Source: a virus. Taken from it: a stretch of DNA of 24,465 nucleotides. Positions 1 through 23,977 of the stretch are shown in pieces (within the stretch, counting starts at the first letter, position 1; the number at the start of each line of letters is the position of its first letter). The position numbers and the translations under genes are program-made. The stretch covers positions 1-24,465 of IMG/VR virus record IMGVR_UViG_3300005747_000393; one strand, written 5' to 3'. A model generated the notes under the pieces. That model was not told the DNA's origin, ran no database searches, and saw only the letters and a list, made by a program, of their open reading frames with translations.

Positions 1-1286
1 CTAGGAGTGATAGAAGGTGTTACTGAAGAAGTAGGTGTTATACTCGGCGTAACACTCGGTGTTACTGAAGGTGTTACTGAACTCGTAGGAGTTACACTTG
101 GAGTCACCGAAGGAGTGACAGATGGAGTGACAGATGAAGTTGGTGTTATACTAGGAGTAACTGATGGAGTTACTGAGGGTGTAACTGAACTCGTAGGAGT
201 AATCGTAGGAGTAATCGTAGGAGTAACACTTGGTGTAACTGAACTCGTAGGAGTAATCGTAGGAGTAACACTTGGTGTTACACTTGGAGTAACTGAGCTC
301 GTAGGAGTAATCGATGGTGTAACGCTAGGAGTAATTGAAGGTGTAACTGAACTCGTAGGAGTTATACTCGGAGTGATCGATGGTGTAACGCTAGGAGTTA
401 CAGAAGGTGTAACTGAACTCGTAGGAGTGATCGTAGGAGTGACGCTTGGTGTAACTGAGCTCGTAGGAGTGATCGTAGGAGTGATCGTAGGTGTTACACT
501 CGGTGTAACGCTCGGGGTAACGCTTGGTGTACTAGCTGCGTTGGCATGTGCGAGGATACGAGATGATGAAAGAGCAGTATCATAAATAGCAAGACCTCGT
601 AACGTTCCATTTAAATACCTCGCGCCACTTCCATCATCACCGACAAAAAAAGGTGCATTTCGATCTACCGGTGAATCTGTTTCAGCAACTGATGCACGCT
701 CAACACCATCAATATAGAGTTTTGCATTTGAACCATCATAGGTATAAACAACATGGTATTCCGTATAACGTGAAACACTATAACCTGTCGGCGTTTCAGG
801 AGTAAGTCCTCTACTTCTGGTTGTATAAAAGATACCTCTAAAATTTGGAGTTCCACCCCAGTCGAACCAAAGCAATATTTCACGTGTAGCAGAATTCCAT
901 TGCCCGATAATTGTACCATCGTTAACGAGCGTATTAGTAGATACGATACCTTCAAGTGTGAAATTCCCACTTGAAACGATATCATCTACTGTAGTTAAAT
1001 CTCCAATTTGATACCTTGTCGTTGTTCCATCGAAGACCTCTGCCGGTCCATTAAGATTTCTATACGCGAGTGGGGAATCAGCTAAGACTTCAGTTTCATA
1101 GGTTATATTAGGAGTAACTGAAGGAGTAACAGATATAGATGGTGTAACGGAAGGTGTAACACTCGGTGTTACTGAGCTAGTCGGTGTGATTGAAGGAGTG
1201 ACACTTGGAGTAACAGATATAGATGGTGTAACACTTGGTGATACGTAAAATGATACCGTTACAGTTGGAGTTGGAGTTGCAGACAT
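1..1286 (-). CDS. LamG-domain protein with Thr/Ser/Pro repeat stalks (partial, C-terminus off the left edge)
   Basis: The frame is open without a stop from the ATG at 1286 to the window edge, giving about 428 visible residues. Residues 1-60 are a Pro/Thr/Val/Ser repeat ([15 protein letters not shown]). Residues about 60-250 form a concanavalin-A/LamG-like jelly-roll domain. Its signatures are a YTYDGSNAKLYIDGVE strand pair, then FFVGDD, then an LRGLAIYDTALSSSRI-type closing strand, the usual end of Laminin_G_3-type domains. From about residue 250 to the edge the protein returns to repeats ([11 protein letters not shown]). LamG folds commonly bind sugars or other surface ligands, so a phage adhesin or fibre decoration protein is the inference. 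It follows the protease-stalk gene after a 28-bp gap on the same strand. No Shine-Dalgarno is visible before the ATG. The domain call is fairly firm; the biological role is not. Confidence 0.8.
   Translation of the reverse strand, partial: MSATPTPTVTVSFYVSPSVTPSISVTPSVTPSITPTSSVTPSVTPSVTPSISVTPSVTPNITYETEVLADSPLAYRNLNGPAEVFDGTTTRYQIGDLTTVDDIVSSGNFTLEGIVSTNTLVNDGTIIGQWNSATREILLWFDWGGTPNFRGIFYTTRSRGLTPETPTGYSVSRYTEYHVVYTYDGSNAKLYIDGVERASVAETDSPVDRNAPFFVGDDGSGARYLNGTLRGLAIYDTALSSSRILAHANAASTPSVTPSVTPSVTPTITPTITPTSSVTPSVTPTITPTSSVTPSVTPSVTPSITPSITPTSSVTPSITPSVTPSITPTSSVTPSVTPSVTPTITPTSSVTPSVTPTITPTITPTSSVTPSVTPSVTPSITPTSSVTPSVTPSVTPSVTPTSSVTPSVTPSVTPSITPTSSVTPSITP
7..525 (-). repeat. Tandem [10 protein letters not shown]-coding repeats
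   Basis: Imperfect tandem 12-18-bp units encode VTPS, ITPS, ITPT and SSVTPS on the - strand. Longer exact copies exist, for example a 37-bp segment at 178-214 recurs at 232-268. The repeat continues beyond the left edge. Confidence 0.9.
447..467 (-). repeat. 21-bp inverted copy of 23768-23788
   Basis: Its reverse complement is identical over 21 bases to 23768-23788. Both encode the peptide segment P-T-S-S-V-T-P within stalk repeats. Confidence 0.8.
1111..1248 (-). repeat. N-terminal VTPS/SISVTPS repeat of the LamG protein
   Basis: Short in-frame units encode SVTPS, SISVTPS and PTSSVTPS between the start codon and the LamG domain. The segment coding VTPSISVTP occurs twice. Confidence 0.85.
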
Positions 1287-1314: not shown

Positions 1315-4227
1315 TTAAGAGGGTGTAGGAGCAGGTGGGGATGGTGGTGGAGTTATACTTGGTGTTACTGATGGTGTAATACTTGGAGTCACGCTTGTAG
1401 AAGGAGTGACAGATACCGGTGGTGTAGCTGAAGGAGTAACAGAGACTGGTGGTGTAGCTGATGGTGTGACAGATACAGATGGTGTAACACTAACCGAAGA
1501 TGTAACACTAACCGATGGTGTAACACTAACTGATGGAGTTGCGCTTACAAAAGGAGGTTCACTTACCGGTGGAGCTGAAGGAGGAGGTGTATTACTTATA
1601 CTTGGTGTAACACTAACAGCAGGAGTAACACTAACAGCAGGAGTAACGCTAACAGCAGGAGTTACACTTGGAGTTACACTTGGAGTTACACTTGGAGTAA
1701 CACTTATCGGAGGTGCTGAAGGGGGAGGTGTATTGCTTACGGAAGGGGTAACAGAAACTGAAGGTGTAACACTAACTGAAGGTGTAACACTGACAGAAGG
1801 TGTGACGCTTACGGAAGGGGTAACAGAAACTGAAGGTGTAACTGATACACTTGGAGTAACACTTACAGAGGGTGTTACTGATATTCCTGGAGTTACACTT
1901 GGAGTAACACTTATAGACGGAGCAACACTTACGGAAGGGGTAACAGAAACTGAAGGTGTAGGTGTTACGCTCGGTGATGGTGTAGGAGAGCACTCAGGGA
2001 AAGGATTAATAGGACTGAGTACAACACGTCGTAGTTGTTCAAATCTACGTGAGACATCACATAGAAACTCATCAGTTATTCCACAAGATAAGGTGTAGAA
2101 AGGACATCCGACAAATACTTCCCAATCGGCTGCTGAAGTTGGAGCGTATACAGTAACTTTAAGACGTGATGTATCAGTATCTTTATAGATAGAGCTTGTT
2201 GCTGTAGTCAATGAACTATTAACATAAGGATAACCATCTGGTGCAAGAGCAATTGGTGGATAACTTGCGTACTTTAAGGAACTTTCTAGACCTGTAGTAA
2301 AGCTACTCCTTAATGCACCACCGTAATTCCAGGTTTCGTTGCCAACAAACCCGGTATCTAATCGGATAATATCATCGTATGTATAGACAAAACGATATGG
2401 GTTTACCGGTGTACTCCATTTTAAATCGATATCTCCAATATATGCAGACATCCCATAAAGAATGGTTGTTTCAAATGCACCGGGGTAATCTGAGCCAAAA
2501 GTTGTTAAATCACATGTATTATCCGGACAACCAATATTTGGCTCCATCCCTAAAAATGGTAATTTAGGTTTATCTTCGGAAATTGGAGTTTCTTCCGGTA
2601 CAGGTCCGGTTGTTGTATTGTCAATTGCGAAAGCTGTTAGTGGGGTGAAGGTAAACTCACTTTCATTAGTTTCAGCACTATTGCCTTCAACATGAAATCC
2701 AGTCGTCACGATAACACCATTAGTATTAGAACTTGTAAGCGGTTTAACGAATGAAACTCCCGGTCTATAGCGTGTATCTGAATATACGTCAATACCAGTT
2801 AACTCCTGGGTAAGGAGTTGTGTGTAAAAAGTATCTGTTTCATTCTTATAATCAACAACAATCCTACGCCCATAGTTTCCAAGACGTGCTCTTATTGTTT
2901 TCTTTCCAGAACTAACCAAATCAAAAGCACTGATTGCTTGTGTTGTGATTACGTTAAAATCTTTATCTCTTACTGTAATACTATTAGGTGCATACGATAC
3001 ACCTGATCGTGTAGGTCCATCAGTATAAGTAAGCTCTGATGCAAAGACACCAAGACTATCAAATCCGATACCTAATATTGGCTTATTAAGTGGTTGTGAG
3101 GATAATGATGCAGAGAGAAGAGTATTACCAGTAAATCCAAGATCAGGTCCAACACCTCCACCACTTAATGGGAAGTTAGCATCCTGTAAAAACATGCAAT
3201 ATCCAAATTCATCTCCAGATGTATACGCGCTAAGCTCGTAAGTGAACGACCATGTTATATCGTATTGTGGAGACATACCCTCTTCAAATATCTGCACTGC
3301 TACAGCGGATAGAGGTAGTTCTACAGGAGCTAGGTAATTAATAAAGCCTGATCCAGATAAATTAAATTCAGTAGCAGTATAACCAGTGCTAACACTTGCA
3401 TCTACATCTGCATCAGCAATCAGTCTATTAAGATCGTTAATGTTACGTAGATTGCCAAAAATATCAAAATCAGCTGTTGTACTTGTAACACCAAGAAAAA
3501 CAAGTTGATTGTCAACAATAGCCATCATTGGTGAACCAGAGTCTCCAGGAATCATCGGCTCACGCCAAAGTAATGCATCAGCATCTACTGGAGCTGCATA
3601 ATATGCATAAGCATTACCTGCTGTATCGTAATCGTTAGGGAAGTCGTCATCAAACTGTCTGAAGTTGATGAGACTCATTCTATGAACAAGTGACTTCTCT
3701 TCCTGATCAGTTGATACAATAAGTGCATCACTTAAAGTGGCATATGCAGATGATGTAAAGTTATTTGGTGCAACATACTTATAGAGATCAGAAGGGAAAA
3801 TAGGTAGAGGCTCAATAGCAGCAGGTAGATCAGAGTCGAATGTAACGACCATATAATCACCGTATGATGTATTTAAACCGGTACTTGCAGCCCCTGCTAC
3901 TGTTCTTGTGTAGACGTTGTTGTCTCTATCCCAGAAGTAGAATATGTTACCTACTTGTGCTGATGCGTGACGAGCAAAAACAGCATGTCTTGGTGTAATA
4001 AGAGCGCCACCTAGAAAGGTACCATCAACATAACCACCAAGTGTACGGTTGTTAAGAGCTGGTATACCTGTAGAACCAGAGAGACCATGCATCCAATTAT
4101 CAGTAGTTCTTGTCATTGCTGACAGCGTAGCATAGTTATTAAACATCTCCTTATCGGTAGATGCATCATAACCGCTAATAGCTGCGAGTACAGAATCAGA
4201 AAGTGTGAGTATTAGATCTCTTGCCAT
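1315..4227 (-). CDS. Trypsin-like serine protease domain fused to a tail/surface protein with SVSVTP repeat stalk
   Basis: 970 aa. The N-terminal ~280 residues look like a chymotrypsin-fold (S1-type) protease. GGALITPRHAVFARHA (73-88) aligns without gaps with the trypsin segment around the catalytic His and puts His87 in that place. GDYMVVTF (123-130) matches the DIALL-type strand with Asp124. PGDSGSP (227-233) is the classic nucleophile motif with Ser230. The order and spacing of His, Asp and Ser fit the fold. Residues about 300-735 are an unrecognised beta-rich region with several cysteines (GCPDNTC, GCPFYTLSCG). Residues about 748-970 are nearly pure S/V/T/P repeats, mostly SVSVTP and SVTPSVTP, interrupted twice by SNTPPPSAPP. 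The gene lies downstream of the fibre genes, so a virion-associated or displayed protein is likely. The substrate is unknown; it may mature a fibre, cut itself, or attack host surface protein. No signal peptide is apparent. Confidence 0.82.
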   Translation of the reverse strand: MARDLILTLSDSVLAAISGYDASTDKEMFNNYATLSAMTRTTDNWMHGLSGSTGIPALNNRTLGGYVDGTFLGGALITPRHAVFARHASAQVGNIFYFWDRDNNVYTRTVAGAASTGLNTSYGDYMVVTFDSDLPAAIEPLPIFPSDLYKYVAPNNFTSSAYATLSDALIVSTDQEEKSLVHRMSLINFRQFDDDFPNDYDTAGNAYAYYAAPVDADALLWREPMIPGDSGSPMMAIVDNQLVFLGVTSTTADFDIFGNLRNINDLNRLIADADVDASVSTGYTATEFNLSGSGFINYLAPVELPLSAVAVQIFEEGMSPQYDITWSFTYELSAYTSGDEFGYCMFLQDANFPLSGGGVGPDLGFTGNTLLSASLSSQPLNKPILGIGFDSLGVFASELTYTDGPTRSGVSYAPNSITVRDKDFNVITTQAISAFDLVSSGKKTIRARLGNYGRRIVVDYKNETDTFYTQLLTQELTGIDVYSDTRYRPGVSFVKPLTSSNTNGVIVTTGFHVEGNSAETNESEFTFTPLTAFAIDNTTTGPVPEETPISEDKPKLPFLGMEPNIGCPDNTCDLTTFGSDYPGAFETTILYGMSAYIGDIDLKWSTPVNPYRFVYTYDDIIRLDTGFVGNETWNYGGALRSSFTTGLESSLKYASYPPIALAPDGYPYVNSSLTTATSSIYKDTDTSRLKVTVYAPTSAADWEVFVGCPFYTLSCGITDEFLCDVSRRFEQLRRVVLSPINPFPECSPTPSPSVTPTPSVSVTPSVSVAPSISVTPSVTPGISVTPSVSVTPSVSVTPSVSVTPSVSVTPSVSVTPSVSVTPSVSVTPSVSNTPPPSAPPISVTPSVTPSVTPSVTPAVSVTPAVSVTPAVSVTPSISNTPPPSAPPVSEPPFVSATPSVSVTPSVSVTSSVSVTPSVSVTPSATPPVSVTPSATPPVSVTPSTSVTPSITPSVTPSITPPPSPPAPTPS
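1330..1985 (-). repeat. SVSVTP tandem repeat of the protease-stalk protein
   Basis: About 220 codons of 12-18-bp units encode SVTP and SVSVTP. Exact copies of 33-35 bp sit at 1736-1770, 1808-1842 and 1928-1960. Two PPPSAPP spacers (around 1560-1600 and 1700-1740) interrupt the array. Confidence 0.92.
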
Positions 4228-4231
4228 AGGA

Positions 4232-4239
4232 TTTTTATA
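4232..4239 (-). promoter_or_regulatory. Possible late-promoter-like box TATAAAAA before protease-stalk gene
   Basis: Seven of 8 matches to TATAAATA, 4 bp upstream of the ATG at 4227. Weaker than the others because the AT-rich background could produce it by chance. Confidence 0.3.
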
Positions 4240-4248
4240 AATGTAAAA

Positions 4249-5868
4249 TTACATGCCCCATTCGAACTTTACAAGCCCGTCAGCAGTATCATTTGATGTA
4301 CCAGCATGCCCTCCACCACCAGCACCTGCAACACTATCAGAGCCCCAGAATGAGGCAGTAGAACCAACCTCTTCGGAGCCACCGTCATCTGTATCCCAAC
4401 CACCACCTCCACCTTCAATAACATGCCCACCGAGAATGTAGGCTGACTCACCCCCTGCAAGGCCTGTACCATTTGTTGAAAGATTACCGGTATTAGTATA
4501 ACCATCATGTACACCGCCATTTTCATCCGGTTGGAATCTAGCACCAACTGATCTTGCAAGTTCTGTACTATCAATAGAAATGTAAGAAGCAGCACCACCT
4601 GTGTCATTTGTTGTAACACCGGCACCAATTGTATAGACAACTTCTGTACCTATTGGAGCTGAAAGAATTCCAGTAACTGTAGCTGCAGCACCACCAGAGC
4701 GAGAACCACCTTTAGCACCAGACCCGGTAATCCAGAATCTCGTGTAAGGAGCTTTTGTGAAAAAGGAGCCAGAACCAGCAGTATCAAAAACCTCAACACC
4801 CGGAACAGGAGTTGTAAGAATAACGTTATCAAGTGGTGAGAATGAAGTACCCTCATCAACATTTACACCATTTACTTGTGCAGATAAGTTACCTTGAAGT
4901 GACATTGATGGGGTAGCTACTGTATCAGGTAGAGCTTTAATAAAGAATGTTACCGCTTTAGCGCTTAATCCACTCGTACCAGTGTCTATATGATATTCTG
5001 TACCACTGGCGGGGTTTGAATTAACCCCATATAAAACCGAATCTTCGTAATCAGGTAAATTGAAATTTACATCATCACCACCATATTGCGAGCCAATAAC
5101 AGCAGATAAGTCGCGGTAATCAGCTCCTGCTATTGACTGACCATTACAAAGCAAATATCCACCAGGTACGCTTGATCCCGAAGCAACAGGAATGATTGTA
5201 CCAATAGGTATAACAGAGGAAGAGTTAAAATAGATGGTAGCATTTGATTCTGGAGCGGTCCACCGGAGATTACCATTAGCATCAGAACGTAAGAAAACAT
5301 TATCACCACCAAGACCGCCAACAGGAAATTGATAATCAACATTGTTAATGTTAATATTCTGTGGTAATTTAAGGTGTGAAACTGAATGAGCAGAAACTCT
5401 ATCTGTTTTAATTTGAGTACTACTTAACGAAATTTTAGTATTGCTTAAATCGATTGAATTACCTAACGCATTAACAGAAACATTAGCTCCAGAAATTGTA
5501 CCGACGGAAATAGTGCCATTACTGTCATTAATATCAATAGTAGTATCGCCAGCCTCTAAAATACGACCAGCTGATAACCAAGTAGACTCTTCGGTGAGTA
5601 CGTAAAATATATTACTTGTAGATTCAAATGCATAATCTCCTGTAATAGCGTCTGTAATAGTAGAAATATCTGTAACTGACCCCTTCCATTTATTACCTAC
5701 AACTATACCACCGGCAGTTTGACCATCCCCTACAAACAGACGTTTACCGTCAATAGTGTATCCTAACTCACCTTCTGATAAAGTAACGTTAAGACGATCA
5801 GCATTATCTCCCCGACGAACGAGTAATTTGAGAAGTGTGTTTTCTAGAATTTCGATTTTTTTAGCCAT
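4249..5868 (-). CDS. Tail fibre: tropism-determinant-like N-terminus, tail-collar domain, glycine-rich tip
   Basis: 539 aa. Residues 17-60 (VRRGDNADRLNVTLSEGELG, then KRLFVGDG and GGIVVGN) are the N-terminal module found on many phage fibres, related to the Mtd N-terminal fold, and probably anchor it to the baseplate. Residues about 140-170 are an S/T/N-rich shaft. Residues about 220-282 (PIGTIIPVASG, PGGYLLCNGQ, then YGGDDVNFNLPDY) are a Phage Tail Collar domain. Residues about 380-539 are rich in glycine (GGGGGW, AGGGGHAG), resembling the polyglycine receptor-binding tips seen in some T4-type adhesins. The N-terminus is paralogous to the next upstream gene at 5878-6906, with only a 9-bp gap between the two. 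Start: ATG preceded by an A/T-rich leader with no Shine-Dalgarno. The fibre call is firm; the receptor is unknown. Confidence 0.85.
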   Translation of the reverse strand: MAKKIEILENTLLKLLVRRGDNADRLNVTLSEGELGYTIDGKRLFVGDGQTAGGIVVGNKWKGSVTDISTITDAITGDYAFESTSNIFYVLTEESTWLSAGRILEAGDTTIDINDSNGTISVGTISGANVSVNALGNSIDLSNTKISLSSTQIKTDRVSAHSVSHLKLPQNININNVDYQFPVGGLGGDNVFLRSDANGNLRWTAPESNATIYFNSSSVIPIGTIIPVASGSSVPGGYLLCNGQSIAGADYRDLSAVIGSQYGGDDVNFNLPDYEDSVLYGVNSNPASGTEYHIDTGTSGLSAKAVTFFIKALPDTVATPSMSLQGNLSAQVNGVNVDEGTSFSPLDNVILTTPVPGVEVFDTAGSGSFFTKAPYTRFWITGSGAKGGSRSGGAAATVTGILSAPIGTEVVYTIGAGVTTNDTGGAASYISIDSTELARSVGARFQPDENGGVHDGYTNTGNLSTNGTGLAGGESAYILGGHVIEGGGGGWDTDDGGSEEVGSTASFWGSDSVAGAGGGGHAGTSNDTADGLVKFEWGM

Positions 5869-22330: not shown

Positions 22331-23977
22331 ATGTTTTGGGGTAGCAAACACTTGTTAAAGACATTTGAAAACATAAATAGCCATATGAGCAGTAATACAG
22401 ATGTAAGTTGGCCAAAGTTAAGTTTTTTAGATGGTGAGATTCAAGGCAACCTTACAAAGACACGTAGTATAGCTTTAGATGATTCTGGGATAATTCACGC
22501 GCTAGGGTACAAATCTGAATTCTATGCGAAAACATATACCTCTCTAGATAAGATAGAGAAAATGCCTGAAGGCTATAAAGGTTTTGTTGGAACCGTAGAA
22601 TGCTCCGATGGCAATACTTATTTCTTGCCAGCCTATACGAAATCTTTTGGAAAACTAAATAGGGCTAGCGGCGAACTTACTATAGAAGAAAAATTATCAT
22701 ACTCCCCTCAAGTTAGATCTGGCGTGGAAGGGTTGAATGGTATTATTTACATGCCTTCGTATACTACAAATCTCAGAATTTTAACCCTCAATACAAAAAC
22801 TGGCGAAATTGGAAGTATTATTCCAGAAAAAGATAAAAGACCAGGGTACATGTCTAGGTTTGGCCATATCTGGGGAGCAGCTACAGACTGCAAAGGTGAG
22901 ATCTATATGCCCCCTGCTTTAAATTCAAGCGCAGCAAAGATTGATAAAAATGGGGAGTTTAAATACCTTGAAGGTCCCCCTATCACCTCAGGGGTATCAG
23001 GTTTTAGTGTGAAATATGTAGGCGCAATTTACGTAAAAGGAGTCAATAAAGTATTTTGCCTACCAAGAACAGGTAAGAAGATTCTTATTATTAATTGTTC
23101 AGATGATTCCTACGAAGAAATCGATCTTCCAAAAGATTACCTCGCAGTAGTAAATAAAAACAAAAACTTCCATGGCTACTTGGCCCCTGATGGTTGGCTT
23201 TATAGCGCCTTCTGGGCCGATACTAAGTGCTTTAGAATCAATCCTAACACATATGAAATTCAATGGAAGGATTATAGTGAGGAGTTTATGGATGGTAAAG
23301 ATACTATTGAAGAGGGTTCTGGTATTATGAGTATAGGTACGGGATTTACAACAGCCACCATTACCGTCGGTAAAAGTGTATATTTCGGTTTAGCTGGCAC
23401 TTCTAAAGCAGTTAAATTAGAATTTGAACCCCTAGTTGCTAAATTACCCAAACCGACAAATGTTATTATGAGTGAGATTAAAATTAATAGTAACGACATT
23501 ACTCCTGGTATTAGAAGTTTGATGGGAGCTTTACTAGCTACGGATAGTGATAAAGAAATTACAATTACTATCTCTAGTAAAGATGTGCCAACAGTGAGTC
23601 CGAGTCCTTCACCATCTCAGACTCCACCACATTCTCTCCCTGTAACACCTAGTGTAACACCTAGTGTAACTCCTTCAAAGACTCCGAGTGTTACTTCAAG
23701 CGCTACACCAGCTGTATCGCCACCAGTTTCCCCAACCAATACACCATCTGTTACTCCGAGTATTACACCTACGAGCTCAGTTACACCATCGGTGACTCTA
23801 AGTGCTATCCCTAGTATAACTCCAACAGTGTGTCTGAGTCCTTCACCATCTTTTGTTTGCCTCACTCCAACAGTGAGTCCGAGTCCTACATGCAACTACG
23901 CAAATTACTGCACTTGCAGTAACTATTGTTGCTCAACAACTACATACTATTGTAGTTGTAATATCTGTTGTTGCTAG
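22331..23977 (+). CDS. Beta-propeller protein with T/S/P stalk and cysteine-rich C-terminus
   Basis: 548 aa from the ATG at 22331, two bases after the lysozyme stop. An alternative ATG at 22385 (530 aa, MSSNTDVSW) has a CATAAATA box 5 bp before it (22372-22379), the same arrangement as at 7548, and may be the true start. Residues about 45-380 contain repeated strands ([69 protein letters not shown]) like a 6-7-bladed propeller. Residues about 418-500 are VTPS/SPSPS repeats similar to the two proteins at the left end. The last 50 residues hold 12 Cys (10 in the last 28), ending CSCNICCC. Such an end suggests dense disulfides or metal binding. A displayed adhesin or receptor-binding protein is the inference. 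Confidence 0.75.
22372..22379 (+). promoter_or_regulatory. Late-promoter-like box CATAAATA inside 5' end of propeller gene
   Basis: Five bp before an in-frame ATG at 22385. The arrangement is the same as for the short tail fibre gene, supporting an internal start or promoter. Confidence 0.35.
23587..23890 (+). repeat. SPSPS/VTPS repeat of the propeller protein
   Basis: In-frame units encode SPSPS, VTPS, SITPT and SSVTPS. They are shorter and more diverged than the left-end arrays but use the same vocabulary. Confidence 0.85.
23768..23788 (+). repeat. 21-bp inverted copy of 447-467
   Basis: The right partner of the long-distance inverted repeat, inside the stalk of the propeller protein. Confidence 0.8.

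Follow-up and report, generated by a model that had tools for sequence, protein, structure and literature searches.

A predicted S1-like protease domain optionally attached to tail-associated adhesin genes of marine phages

Well-described phage-tail enzymes, including tailspike and fibre depolymerases, mostly cut glycans, and glycan depolymerases are swapped among tailspikes. Trypsin-like domains are known from other contexts: UmbA of the Streptomyces umbrella toxins comprises an N-terminal trypsin-like domain followed by a surface-binding domain within an extracellular particle (PMC11062931), and an annotated trypsin-like protease of Rhizobium/Sinorhizobium phages has been named (PMC10783043). 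In the open-access papers searched, no S1 protease was found to be described from a phage tail fibre. Here, we analysed a 970-residue protein of a marine phage, encoded in a 24,465-nucleotide stretch of viral DNA (IMG/VR record IMGVR_UViG_3300005747_000393), which is referred to as the window. Its N-terminal domain shares with the S1 peptidases of clan PA (chymotrypsin, factor IX, plasminogen and urokinase) the His-Asp-Ser order, the GDSG motif and the predicted fold, but it is very divergent, contains no cysteine, has a residue other than Asp at position 189 and displays an RHxxxxxH motif specific to its own family; no activation N-terminus of the IVGG type was seen in the domain. As in UmbA, the trypsin-like domain precedes a putative surface-binding part, whereas the UmbA triads are incomplete and inactive and that of the window protein is intact rather than degenerate. 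Like the tailspike and fibre depolymerases, the domain would be an enzyme that a host-contacting tail protein may or may not carry, except that it would cut protein. Closer by sequence is UOF78081.1 of Podoviridae sp. ct3Et533 (MW202510), a member of the same family with 27–29% identity, the triad retained and a location in a tail-gene region, which differs in its length of 411 residues and its other N-terminal module and is annotated solely as a hypothetical protein. Neither the fold nor the mechanism is new; what seems to be undescribed, within the open-access papers searched, is the family and its role as an optional module borne by tail adhesins.

The protein is encoded on the minus strand (1315..4227) and consists of the S1-like protease domain, a two-part middle region and a repeat tail. 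The original prediction had placed the protease at the N-terminus of a 970-residue protein, which agrees with the open reading frame and with the extent of the chymotrypsin-fold domain (residues 1–292; 3352..4227, minus strand). The middle region (residues 302–746; 1990..3324, minus strand) is common to relatives with and without the protease. Its first half resembles a jelly-roll lectin by eye, and "lectin-like" is a visual judgement because searches of PDB and Pfam returned no matches to the middle region. This half may constitute a separate domain, since ORFs of ~270 residues in L207, L208 and L209 match it, and not the second half, at ~30% identity. The C-terminal 224 residues (1318..1989, minus strand) form a Ser/Pro/Val/Thr repeat tail devoid of Lys and Arg. 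A stalk of about 220 residues had been noted and such a tail is indeed present in the window, but it is an inconstant partner, being a separate ORF in relative L017. Differing low-complexity tails, such as SSSG and SAETSAETSAE, follow the protease in L012, L023, L055 and L063. Neighbouring genes rich in SVTP/SITP repeats were observed in the window (3–1286, minus strand, with a LamG-like stretch by eye) and in L001 (12980–15451, >824 residues, running past the contig end), and the long frames opposite repeat tails at 1–585 and 1406–2098 (plus strand) of the window are antisense artefacts of the repeats. By eye, signal-peptide-like N-termini are present in several bacterial homologues and not in the window protein.

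Searches of Pfam, NCBIfam, PHROGs and, with the single sequence, PDB yielded no matches over the window protease domain. The Pfam Trypsin profile (PF00089) matched six of 38 relatives weakly (best E 2.6e-4) and not the window protein. Scans with protein patterns picked up a single near relative among viral contigs; genome contigs yielded none. A degenerate DNA pattern was derived from the window and the MW202510 homologue, with Gly74, Arg80, His81, His87, Gly93, Phe98, Arg108 and Val110 fixed, and scanned over viral and genome contigs. This gave 78 loci, a few of them copies of one contig, scoring >90 bits against the family profile, compared with <9 bits for chance pattern matches. A profile built without the window in its seed recovered the window protein at 154 bits (E 4e-47). 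The family is found mostly in marine viral contigs and in a few bacteria, mainly Verrucomicrobiota/Kiritimatiellota; a scan of plasmids returned no matches. In the tree, the window groups with L005, L046 and L027 (support 96/92), and the remaining members are mostly viral contigs; seven rows come from genome contigs, among them Verrucomicrobiota, Kiritimatiellota and Bacteroidota. The segment spanning residues 1–292 belongs to a divergent and apparently new S1-related family.

An S1-type fold had been proposed, to be sought by structure prediction and Foldseek, and both pointed to it. AlphaFold2 modelled the protease domain with a pLDDT of 90.2 and a pTM of 0.90 from a 38-sequence alignment, compared with a pLDDT of 28.8 from two sequences. 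The best 50 Foldseek matches in PDB all had the S1 fold (E 1e-9 to 7e-8, probability 1.00), with target-length TM-scores mostly between 0.46 and 0.61 and high rmsd values across long gapped alignments. The best viral match was an uncharacterised Caudovirales protein (E 7e-20). In a profile search of PDB sequences, all 60 matches listed of 75 were S1 proteases, with a best E of 0.012. The predicted structure thus corresponds to the double beta-barrel chymotrypsin fold of S1 and clan PA.

The proposed catalytic residues were located exactly where the original prediction had them, namely His87 in ITPRHAVFARHA (3967..3969), Asp124 in GDYMVVTF (3856..3858) and Ser230 in PGDSGSP (3538..3540), all on the minus strand and corresponding to chymotrypsin positions His57, Asp102 and Ser195, respectively. 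They follow the S1 and clan PA order with GDSG around the serine, and their motifs are not a product of chance because the distant phage homologue keeps all three residues. Homologues lacking triad residues were looked for and none was found: among the 76 aligned members, every one has Asp124, a residue that the DNA pattern had left free, and Ser230 is present in all 72 whose sequence reaches that position; His87 is likewise invariant (76/76), although the pattern itself required it. When the family profile was aligned with coagulation factor IX, the conserved Asp fell on Asp102 within NHDIALLELD and the His regions and GDSG motifs were also paired, and the spacing of Ser249 from Ser230 equals that of Ser214 in S1 peptidases. 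Comparison of the window with its closest relative gave a dN/dS of 0.26 for the catalytic core (residues 71–284), which indicates purifying selection.

The term "trypsin-like" held for the S1-type fold and the order of the triad, but not for trypsin-type specificity. Counted back from Ser195, assuming no insertion, position 189 is Pro224, within a column that is variable across the family, and not the pocket Asp189 found in trypsin-specific S1A proteases, which argues against a trypsin-like preference for basic residues. The triad also bears on a purely binding role, as in the umbrella toxins, which we consider distinctly improbable. Three of the best 50 PDB fold matches are chains of the umbrella toxin particle (8w20), and UmbA likewise joins a trypsin-like domain to lectins, propeller and concanavalin types included (PMC11062931). 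However, the S. coelicolor UmbA proteins lack a complete triad and those domains that were assayed were inactive (PMC11062931), whereas Asp124 and Ser230 are retained throughout the family studied here, and binding alone would not demand a conserved triad.

Relatives without the protease were found by searching with the middle region of the window. In ten contigs (L194–L199 and L201–L204), whose downstream domains are 60–91% identical to those of the window protein, the same gene starts close to the middle region and carries no protease. At the DNA level, alignment of these contigs with the window resumes on either side of a cassette-like segment at ~3329–4245 (minus strand), with roughly 65–82% identity depending on the locus. 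The protease is present in the fibre gene of L001 and of the L017/L027 pair. A whole-record search of the L194 contig found a family protease inside a 798-residue protein, the orthologue of the second adhesin-like gene of the window (22331..23977, plus strand), with 68% identity to its product over 358 residues. In the window, this second gene is protease-free, with an MFWGSK leader and a propeller-like appearance by eye. In L053, a family protease protein has a comparable MFWGSK leader, and a gp6-like protein is 84% identical to that of the window. The L001 contig combines a protease-loaded fibre gene with a protease-free propeller gene, and the L196 and L201 contigs possess both carriers with no protease matches in whole-record searches. 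Among the few contigs seen, whose records are fragments, none had both carriers loaded. Near relatives without the protease, and one with a related protease domain in a second surface-type protein, suggest an optional host-surface enzyme. Second adhesin-like proteins were observed to start with MFWGSK, MCWGSQ or MFWSSK, and those of the window, L220 and L210 have Cys-rich tails, e.g. the CGSCPSSSATI repeats of L220. In the contig of L201, the propeller-like gene has a DUF1501 protein as its immediate upstream neighbour (L220:225–1424, E 1e-97). DUF1501 is common in planctomycetes, so this neighbour is a possible hint at the host.

The suggestion that the protease sheds or matures fibres in general did not survive these comparisons, since in close relatives this fibre gene lacks the cassette. 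In a narrower form, the protease would act in cis and cut its own carrier, either to free itself or to mature the fibre. Self-cleavage is known from other phage fibre proteins, several relatives carry the protease as a cis fusion, two unrelated carriers being among them, and a basic-specific protease would spare a repeat tail without Lys or Arg. We nevertheless regard cis processing as unlikely, given the ten relatives whose version of this fibre gene has no cassette, the separate protease gene of L012, which adjoins a propeller-like adhesin gene, and the Pro at position 189, a pocket that predicts no basic specificity.

The location in the fibre gene region was borne out. Immediately upstream of the ORF, 21 nt away and in the same orientation, is a tail gene bearing Mtd_N and phage tail collar domains (4249..5868, minus strand); the ORF itself ends a baseplate/tail cluster that includes baseplate wedge relatives. 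Homologues are also fused to tail-fibre modules, as befits a virion tail fibre or adhesin: in L060, the domain is C-terminal to a long-tail-fibre N-terminus. In L034, it follows a Big_2-like (Ig-like) module. These two fusions speak against a protease that acts inside the cell or is released on lysis and just happens to be encoded near structural genes, as does the placement of the protease at either end of the tail cluster within the group of the window. The free-standing gene of L012 and the genes of L041 and L054, whose neighbours serve DNA metabolism and not the tail, would fit such a protease, which we consider quite unlikely.

The reading we favour, and deem somewhat probable, is an active, optional protease on tail-associated adhesins that cuts extracellular protein, probably of the host surface, during adsorption; we infer virion display, enzymatic activity and a host-surface substrate. 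The intact conserved triad, the purifying selection and the changing carriers suggest an active protease acting on a target other than its carrier. Phages of this group would attach the chymotrypsin-fold protease to the front of the adhesins, the adhesin part would carry it to the cell surface, and the His87-Asp124-Ser230 triad would cut protein outside the cell, the likeliest substrate being a host-surface protein that either obstructs the receptor or serves as it. Against this stands that the N-terminus of a phage fibre is usually the virion attachment part, and with an enzyme there the site of attachment is not accounted for. The DNA-metabolism surroundings of the gene in L041 and L054, the free-standing gene of L012 and the lack of Pfam, NCBIfam or PHROG matches to the domain in the window protein also weigh against this reading. 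More tentatively, the domain may be an interchangeable viral S1-like module, which resides on either adhesin, in a neighbouring gene or nowhere, and opens proteinaceous host surfaces; this possibility could be likened to the swapping of depolymerases among tailspikes. Tail adhesins bearing a widespread but uncatalogued chymotrypsin-fold family would imply that marine hosts have protein barriers and would supply a protease paired with a surface-binding module, and the presence or absence of the domain among closely related phages would offer a natural comparison for host range.
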